Below, piece by piece: positions 38,138 to 39,133 of a DNA stretch of 40,680 nucleotides. Position numbers and translations under genes: made by a program. Position 1 is the stretch's first letter. Each line of letters starts with the position of its first letter. The notes below the pieces were generated by a model. It saw only the letters and a list, made by a program, of their open reading frames with translations, was not told the DNA's origin and made no database searches. The DNA is from a virus, in IMG/VR virus record IMGVR_UViG_3300013110_000211, positions 1-40,680 of that record, one strand, 5' to 3'.

Positions 38138-38335
38138 ATGATGAGCGTACTATTTAAGGCTGCAACAAAAGTAGCCATGAATGTGATTATGTCGATGGCT
38201 AGTGAGAAGTTTATTGAATGGCTTATGTTTTACGTTGCTGAGCATATCGTTAAGACAACCAAAACAAAGCATGATGATAAGTTTTATGCAGAAGTTGTGT
38301 CAGCATATCGAAAAGGTAAGGTAAAGAGGGGTTAA
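38138..38335 (+). CDS. Small amphipathic protein after the endolysin (65 aa)
   Basis: ATG 38138 (MMSVLFKAATKVAMNVIMSM) follows AGGAGAAT. It is a helical hydrophobic stretch (ATKVAMNVIMSMASEKFIEW, LMFYVAEHIV) and a basic end (KTTKTKHDDKFYAEVVSAYR). Similar small proteins follow lysis genes in marine phages; a lysis accessory or membrane-associated role is possible. Directly followed by a terminator. Confidence 0.62.
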   Translation: MMSVLFKAATKVAMNVIMSMASEKFIEWLMFYVAEHIVKTTKTKHDDKFYAEVVSAYRKGKVKRG

Positions 38336-38460: not shown

Positions 38461-38601
38461 AAAAAAGGCTTATTAGTACAAGCCCAGTAACTCGGGGTGG
38501 TATAGCAATGTGGAAGTATTCCCACGAAAACTAGACCTGTACTAATAAACCCTAAATTACTATACCATTAAACGGCTTCCACACCGCAAGACAAATTATA
38601 G
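38461..38601 (-). ncRNA. Candidate small structured RNA gene with three interlocked helices
   Basis: On the minus strand TATAAT (38600-38595) with TTTCAA 17 bp upstream predicts a start near 38588. GGCTT/AAGCC (38484-38480/38471-38467) followed by TTTTTT (38466-38461) is an intrinsic terminator, so the RNA would be about 130 nt. In the RNA, segments c (TGTGGAAG), b (TGGTATAG), a (TTATTAGTACA) are followed in the same order by perfect complements: c* CTTCCACA, b* CTATACCA, a* TGTACTAATAA. Segment a* overlaps the terminator stem, so pairing a-a* would compete with termination. No coding frame is present. The surrounding gap 38344-38713 also holds the GGTTTG/CAAACC stem pair near 38388/38446 and the lipoprotein promoter. 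Confidence 0.55.
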
Positions 38602-38622
38602 CAAAGCTTAGAGCATTTTGAA

Positions 38623-38673: not shown

Positions 38674-38713
38674 ACAAACCAAGCAAATAAACAAATGAAA
38701 ATTGGAGATAAAG

Positions 38714-39133
38714 ATGAAAAAGACATTACTTACACTTGGTTTACTTTCTGTTATTGGCTTAACTGGCTGTCAAGATGACGCAGATGTTGCGAGCTACAAT
38801 CTAAGTAAGGCCGCTGATAATTTCGAGATTGCTCGAAGGGTTGTTTTTTACAATGGTATAACAGGAGATTATATACTTTCTGTGCAAGGCTTGTGCTCTG
38901 TAAGTAATAACGGGAGAAGCGTATCTTTTACCTGTAAAAATAATAAGGGTAAATATGTAAAGCACATGCTTGGGCTATCTGACAATGTTACTTACTTTTC
39001 TGAGCAGTTAAGCGCTCATGATGTTAGCGTTTATCACTACAGGGTTACGTTTAAGCCTGACGCGGTTATTCCAGACATTAATATTAGATCTAGGCTTGTT
39101 GATGATGTTGAAAATGAAAGACTAGATAAGTAA
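38714..39133 (+). CDS. Phage lipoprotein (139 aa), beta-sandwich type
   Basis: ATG 38714 (MKKTLLTLGLLSVIGLTGC) with GGAG upstream; the TTG four codons earlier has no ribosome site. Lipobox LTGC, with C19 as the lipidated residue, then a mature domain opening NLSKAADNFEIARRVVFYNG and TGDYILSVQGLCSV, a pattern I associate with phage beta-sandwich lipoproteins. It is probably anchored in the outer or inner membrane of the infected cell, where such proteins can block receptors against further phages. It has its own promoter and a strong terminator, as morons do. Confidence 0.78.
   Translation: MKKTLLTLGLLSVIGLTGCQDDADVASYNLSKAADNFEIARRVVFYNGITGDYILSVQGLCSVSNNGRSVSFTCKNNKGKYVKHMLGLSDNVTYFSEQLSAHDVSVYHYRVTFKPDAVIPDINIRSRLVDDVENERLDK

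Follow-up and report, generated by a model that had tools for sequence, protein, structure and literature searches.

In bacteriophage T4, the genes for RNAC and RNAD are located in the tRNA cluster. The two are small late RNAs whose function is unknown (PMC9697503). GOLLD and ROOL are likewise found close to the tRNA islands of phages, and the GOLLD linker can contain tRNAs (PMC12286853). Other phages encode put of HK022, a promoter-proximal RNA of ~70 nt with two stem-loops that affects termination (PMC9378689), and an abundant, orf-less 800-nt transcript of ICP1 (PMC7567579).

We analyzed a 40,680-nt stretch of viral DNA (IMG/VR record IMGVR_UViG_3300013110_000211; hereafter, the window), whose minus strand carries a candidate RNA gene (38588–38461) with a predicted product of ~125 nt, hereafter RNA1. 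Like GOLLD and ROOL, RNA1 is phage-borne, pseudoknotted, and, in relatives but not in the window, adjoins phage tRNAs (PMC12286853), whereas those RNAs are 500–800 nt long, and RNA1 differs from them in having its own promoter and terminator, an alternative pairing of its f and a segments, and no Rfam match. With RNAC and RNAD, to which it can be compared by description only, it shares a small size and a tie to phage tRNA genes, but it occurs in other phages of other hosts and, again, matches no Rfam family. The likeness to attenuators and riboswitches, such as T-box leaders, lies in a promoter-proximal leader whose terminator is overlapped by an exclusive alternative helix; RNA1, however, precedes tRNAs rather than protein genes, contains triple crossing pairings, and matches no Rfam riboswitch or T-box model. 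Compared with put, which is likewise a promoter-proximal phage RNA and affects termination, RNA1 is pseudoknotted, 125 nt long, and equipped with its own terminator, with downstream genes that are convergent in the window; its architecture thus differs from two ~70-nt stem-loops acting on RNA polymerase in cis. The region of the ICP1 transcript (L103 10098–11108; ICP1 80097–81107) gave no match to the RNA1 model. Using Rfam 15, no family reached the gathering score in the whole window (including riboswitches, ribozymes, C4 antisense RNA, T-box, GOLLD, and ROOL), the element gave chance matches only at E ≤ 10, and the loci of relatives gave tRNA matches only; none of the self-cleaving ribozyme classes in Rfam was matched by the window or the element. 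No earlier description of this RNA was found in the open-access literature searched.

From 38622 to 38461, the minus strand reads as promoter, hairpin d with c in its loop, b, a, UUCGUGGGAA, c*, b*, CCCCGAGUUACU, a*, and U6 (Table 1). Nearly all relatives have a −10-like hexamer (TATAAT, or TACAAT/GATAAT) immediately 5' of hairpin d, and a U-run follows a* in 26 of the 26 relatives analyzed. The UUCGUGGGAA block was invariant in 12 Pseudoalteromonas-type members and altered in 1.122.A, NF, and phiV208.

Table 1. Parts of the RNA1 element in window coordinates
Feature	Position	Strand	Pairing or basis
Promoter TTCAAA, 16-nt spacer, TG-C-TATAAT (extended −10)	38595–38622	−	Consensus scan only; similar number expected by chance
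TATAAT	38600–38595	−	Read directly
Hairpin d, 8-nt loop = segment c	38572–38587	−	GCGG 38587–38584 / CCGT 38575–38572
Segment c, UGUGGAAG	38576–38583	−	Partner c* 38516–38509; covaries
Segment b, UGGUAUAGUA	38558–38567	−	Partner b* 38507–38498; covaries
f5, AGUAAUUUAGGG, proposed antiterminator 5' strand	38550–38561	−	Helix f, 38561–38550 with 38497–38486; overlaps 3' end of b and first GGG of a
Segment a, 5' strand of 24-bp terminator hairpin	38530–38553	−	Pairs with a* 38488–38465
UUCGUGGGAA, constant unpaired block of type I	38519–38528	−	Sequence comparison
Segment c*, CUUCCACA	38509–38516	−	Pairing enumeration and alignment
Segment b*, UGCUAUACCA	38498–38507	−	Pairing enumeration and alignment
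f3, CCCCGAGUUACU, proposed antiterminator 3' strand	38486–38497	−	Overlaps inner end of a*
Segment a*, terminator hairpin 3' strand	38465–38488	−	Pairs with a 38553–38530
U6 tract, presumed RNA 3' end	38461–38466	−	Read directly

Three crossing pairs of complementary segments are present at 38461–38601, and direct reading recovered everything that the first-pass annotation had listed there, namely the minus-strand TATAAT, the terminator with T6, and the three pairs in their order. Because the segments run c, b, a, c*, b*, a*, all three helices cross one another. The annotated lengths of 8, 8, and 11 pairs are correct as Watson–Crick stretches, and enumeration on the minus strand of the window gave 8 bp for c; with G–U pairs, however, b comprises 10 pairs (one G–U) and a 24 contiguous pairs (five G–U). 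Similarly, a* does lie in the terminator stem, but this stem is the whole of helix a. Three helices of at least 8 Watson–Crick pairs were found in none of 4000 dinucleotide shuffles and two such helices in 15 of 4000, which bears out the earlier judgment that chance is an unlikely origin, and the nested minimum free energy (MFE) of the element had a z-score of −4.4 against shuffles. Overlooked in the first pass were hairpin d, which holds c in its loop, and a fourth helix, f. The suggested alternative pairing of c* with GUGGGA was rejected because the UUCGUGGGAA side stays constant while c* varies among relatives. An inner stem UCG/CGA beside UUCGUGGGAA was also discarded, as it was not kept as such in L015, L021, and L023.

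The RNA occurs in two dozen or more phages of Pseudoalteromonas and Vibrio. Fifteen members have the same topology (type I), including Pseudoalteromonas phage H105/1, which carries the element at 84% (BLAST), Vibrio phages NF, 1.122.A, and phiV208, and IMG/VR contigs. Pattern scans of IMG/VR yielded L004, L008, L010–L015, L017, L020, L021, L023, and L024; queries with divergent members yielded NF and 1.122.A/B, and shared flanks led to phiV208, Seahorse, 1.110.O, and 1.242.O. The neighboring genes, named outside H105/1 mostly by visual reading of proteins rather than by search, differ among members: the window and L008 have those of the tail and lysis region, H105/1, L013, L015, and L021 have terminase or head genes, and L014, L020, and L004 have genes of early or replication type. 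In view of these differences, the RNA is a self-contained cassette; its annotated site between a lysis operon and a lipoprotein gene holds in the window but is not typical, since relatives occupy unrelated places, often before tRNAs. The product of the lipoprotein gene (38711–39133, plus strand) has a signal peptide with a TGC lipobox and matched PHROG 478 (E 4e-51), whose label, recombination directionality factor, does not obviously fit the lipobox. An initial pattern, TTATTAGTACA...CTTCCACA, gave 5 matches, 4 of them by chance. All 36 matches of a genome pattern scan were attributable to chance, so no copy was found in the species genomes scanned with that pattern. Pattern scanning of a Gammaproteobacteria sample gave chance-like matches only, a covariance model run without a positive control found none in 274 gammaproteobacterial genomes, and the plasmids searched held no copy of the element. 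A match in 1.081.O was a plain terminator sharing the same tail and not a family member.

The 15 type I members were aligned by hand and checked letter for letter against their loci, because MAFFT misplaces c in members with 10-nt loops. Standard pairs occupied 60/60 cells in d, 119/127 in c, 161/165 in b, and 281/283 in a, and double changes were seen in 1, 5, 8 (of 11), and 8 pairs, respectively; in hairpin d, GCGG/CCGC was exchanged with GCAG/CTGC. In a tree-free ranking, the best six of 8153 column pairs all fell in b, a, and c. Under a tree-aware null in which column substitutions were redistributed over the tree, two b pairs reached E<0.02 and 0.05 across the full set of 8147 pairs, while the best c and a pairs had E-values of 0.2–1.5 over all pairs, or well under 0.05 by our own scaling if only the ~50 proposed pairs are counted. 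When partners were permuted, none of 5000 permutations matched the own pairing of c, b, or a in type I, or of c or b in type II. Comparison of the aligned sequences shows that helices d, c, b, and a are maintained through compensatory change, and the segment pairs stay complementary in homologues, where a loss of complementarity would have argued against the annotated RNA. An origin by chance, or as inverted repeats recognized in DNA by a DNA-binding protein, would agree with the repeats being palindromic in DNA too, but comparison refutes it, and we give it almost no credence: in addition to the shuffles and the compensatory changes in all helices, the type I alignment contains ~100 G–U cells versus 4 A–C cells, an excess that is sensible only for a minus-strand RNA and shows this RNA to be the selected molecule. 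The annotation as a compact phage RNA gene is supported by the promoter, the U-run, and the three covarying crossing helices.

At least 11 further phages (HS2, BS5, Pq0, 1.054.O, 1.085.O, 1.110.O, 1.240.O, 1.275.O, BT-1011, VaM_H2, and Seahorse) carry a sister RNA, type II, in which c* and b* are swapped, giving the order c, b, a, b*, c*, a*. Type II keeps the d(c) hairpin, b, the long hairpin a, and the U-run, and lies 5' of either tRNAs or the same downstream RNA as type I. Its b helices (AGATGGT/ACCATCT, GATAATTGGT/ACCAATTATC, and GCAATTTGGTAGA/TCTATCAAGTTGC) and c helices (TTGGTAG/CTACCAA, GTGGTG/CACCAC, and TTGAAAGA/TCTTTCAA) are wholly different in sequence. The type I covariance model found most type II members at full length with E-values from 1e-8 upward (1.275.O, 1e-8; 1.240.O, 6e-8; Seahorse, 1e-7; 1.110.O, 5e-7), which argues for a single family; it was weaker on HS2, BS5, and 1.085.O, reached only E 0.035 on 1.189.O, and did not find 1.131.O. 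The last two are more divergent, with a covarying c (CTTTCAC/CCTTCAT), and b was identified in neither. Automatic assignment of strand order was unreliable where f or a was picked in place of b. In BS5 (L105 610–723, minus strand) and Pq0 (L108 853–966, minus strand), small hypothetical proteins have been annotated over the RNA or right next to it; these genes are probably spurious. Overall, a structured RNA family without an Rfam entry, present in phages of two marine bacterial genera at unrelated genome positions, is well supported.

Helix f engages the terminator-base GGG: f5 consists of the end of b, a linker, and the first GGG of a, and is complementary to the 12 nt before a*. The helix has 10–11 bp in L020, NF, 1.122.A, and phiV208, where its sequence is altered on both strands (AGTAATTTGGG/CCCGAGTTACT; AACATTAGGG/CCTCTAATGTT), and its type II equivalent overlaps c*. 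Permutations as good as the own pairing numbered 8 of 5000 in type I and 2 of 5000 in type II, uncorrected for relatedness, so that the support for f is below that for a, b, and c (0/5000). After f3 was swapped in from another type I member, f still formed in 99 of 150 trials, and it is partly forced by the bases that it has in common with b and a. On this weaker support, comparison shows f to be a conserved alternative helix that overlaps b as well as a and is exclusive with the terminator; by our reasoning, f and full-length a exclude each other because both need the terminator-base GGG and f would span the whole hairpin. In nested MFE folding, f was present at the point preceding a* in 14 of the 15 type I and 10 of the 11 type II members (24/26), H105/1 not folding into f, and hairpin a was formed at full length in 26/26; together with U6, the 24-bp hairpin is a predicted intrinsic terminator. 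For the growing transcript of the window, the favored helix passed from b to f to a, and b was also the favored fold at its own point in 9/15 type I members. The first-pass description of the RNA as switch-like is thus supported, in that a fourth helix excludes the terminator.

As the loci show, the family heads islands of tRNAs or structured RNAs in many relatives, at least nine of which have a tRNA within ~100 nt 3' of RNA1. The tRNA begins 0–5 nt past the U-run in L015, L021, Seahorse, 1.085.O, and VaM_H2, and lies within ~100 nt of it in 1.110.O, 1.240.O, 1.242.O, and L020. In L015 (3027–2963) and L021 (8932–8868), both on the minus strand, the abutting tRNA is 65 nt long, with an Rfam score of 49 bits and the anticodon loop CUUUUAA, and was missed by ARAGORN. 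In NF, a tRNA fold that scores below threshold (21 bits) starts directly 3' of the U-run. A ~103-nt tRNA-like element with two T-arm-like GGTTCGA motifs also lies directly past the U-run in NF and phiV208 (L097 4127–4229, and L098). In most relatives, a further 250–600 nt of the same strand is non-coding and includes tRNAs as well as RNA2, a second conserved structured RNA.

RNA2 is ~200–300 nt long, is located 3' of RNA1, and exists in several interchangeable types (L013, L010, L014, L020, L021, and the loci L104 of HS2, L105 of BS5, L106 of 1.131.O, and L107 of 1.189.O). Its closing helix covaries (AGATACG/CGTATCT, AGACCG/CGGTCT, AGACCCG/CGGGTCT), an inner helix is formed by GTGCATGG/CCATGCAC, and the loci tested had no Rfam match. 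An extra copy of c* (e.g., TCTCACTT and TTTCCACA) occurs 10–20 nt past the tRNA-like element in L004, L008, L010, L011, L013, and L014, and in several islands it sits between the tRNA and RNA2. This copy, possibly a second partner for c, fits the c loop of its own phage better than those of others (permutation p 0.002, uncorrected for relatedness).

Such islands could indicate that RNA1 is the 5' domain of a larger phage RNA composed of RNA1, a tRNA or tRNA-like element, and RNA2, a marine counterpart of GOLLD and ROOL from which RNA1 is either freed by tRNA processing or not detached. The same-strand non-coding DNA with its covarying RNA2, the interposed c* copy, and the tRNA-rich setting of GOLLD and ROOL, including the tRNAs in the GOLLD linker (PMC12286853), speak for this reading, which we nevertheless consider improbable: neither the NF island nor the L013 island matched the GOLLD and ROOL models at E ≤ 1, the parts are divided by a strong hairpin and its U6, and the window has neither a tRNA nor RNA2 downstream of the element, its next 120 nt folding no better than shuffles (z +0.9).

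The solitary copy in the window, with its perfect helices, favors the main rival, a stable trans-acting small RNA with an ordinary terminator, whose compact pseudoknot would bind a protein, ribosome, tRNA, or defense factor. In such a fold, b and c would be stacked on the uninterrupted c*–b* strand next to helix a, and f would be no more than a folding intermediate. The c*–b* gap of 0–1 nt in all type I members, the constant unpaired block UUCGUGGGAA, the RNA's own promoter and U-run, and the T4 precedent of RNAC and RNAD (PMC9697503) are all in line with this proposal, but the paired changes of f in both types and the tRNAs that abut the U-run without room for another promoter would be left unexplained, and we hold it as a tentative alternative.

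We prefer, with a probability of about one half, to read RNA1 as a terminator/antiterminator switch that acts co-transcriptionally at the head of phage tRNA/ncRNA islands, since the conserved pairings cross and exclude each other in a manner resembling an on/off switch for transcription. The anatomy, with a promoter, an alternative helix, a terminator, and then stable RNAs, fits an attenuator. Minus-strand transcription would start at ~38588; before a* emerges, folding predicts that f is favored, with the terminator-base GGG held by CCCC-GAGUUACU, and that the full-length RNA shifts to hairpin a, followed by U6. If f were held, polymerase would read through into the downstream tRNAs and second structured RNA of the relatives, and if hairpin a were allowed to form, transcription would end. 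The kissing pair c–c* and helix b may bias this choice, and a ligand, protein, or RNA may act via UUCGUGGGAA, the constant block, or via the c loop. In the window, where neither a tRNA nor RNA2 lies past the element, the product would be the terminated RNA itself, or else read-through would enter, in antisense, the convergent genes that end at 38335. Counting against the switch, hairpin a exceeds the usual length of terminators, no recognizable tRNA lies downstream in the window, L004, and some other members, and H105/1 does not fold into f. Taken as a whole, the first-pass interpretation is partly supported; none of the results obtained here hinted at a ribozyme, an antisense RNA, or an anti-defense RNA. 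Doubtful, in our view, is the broader proposal of a promoter-proximal riboregulator class whose exclusive pseudoknotted states gate phage tRNAs and a second RNA, perhaps by sensing a tRNA or other RNA via the c loop.

Three crossing helices are rare, and here the order of two 3' strands is swapped between branches of the family. If the switch is true, phages would control their own tRNA islands through RNA folding, which would provide a direct route to studying when and why phages make tRNAs. RNA1 is also a companion to GOLLD and ROOL, the large phage RNAs associated with tRNAs, and is both small and tractable.
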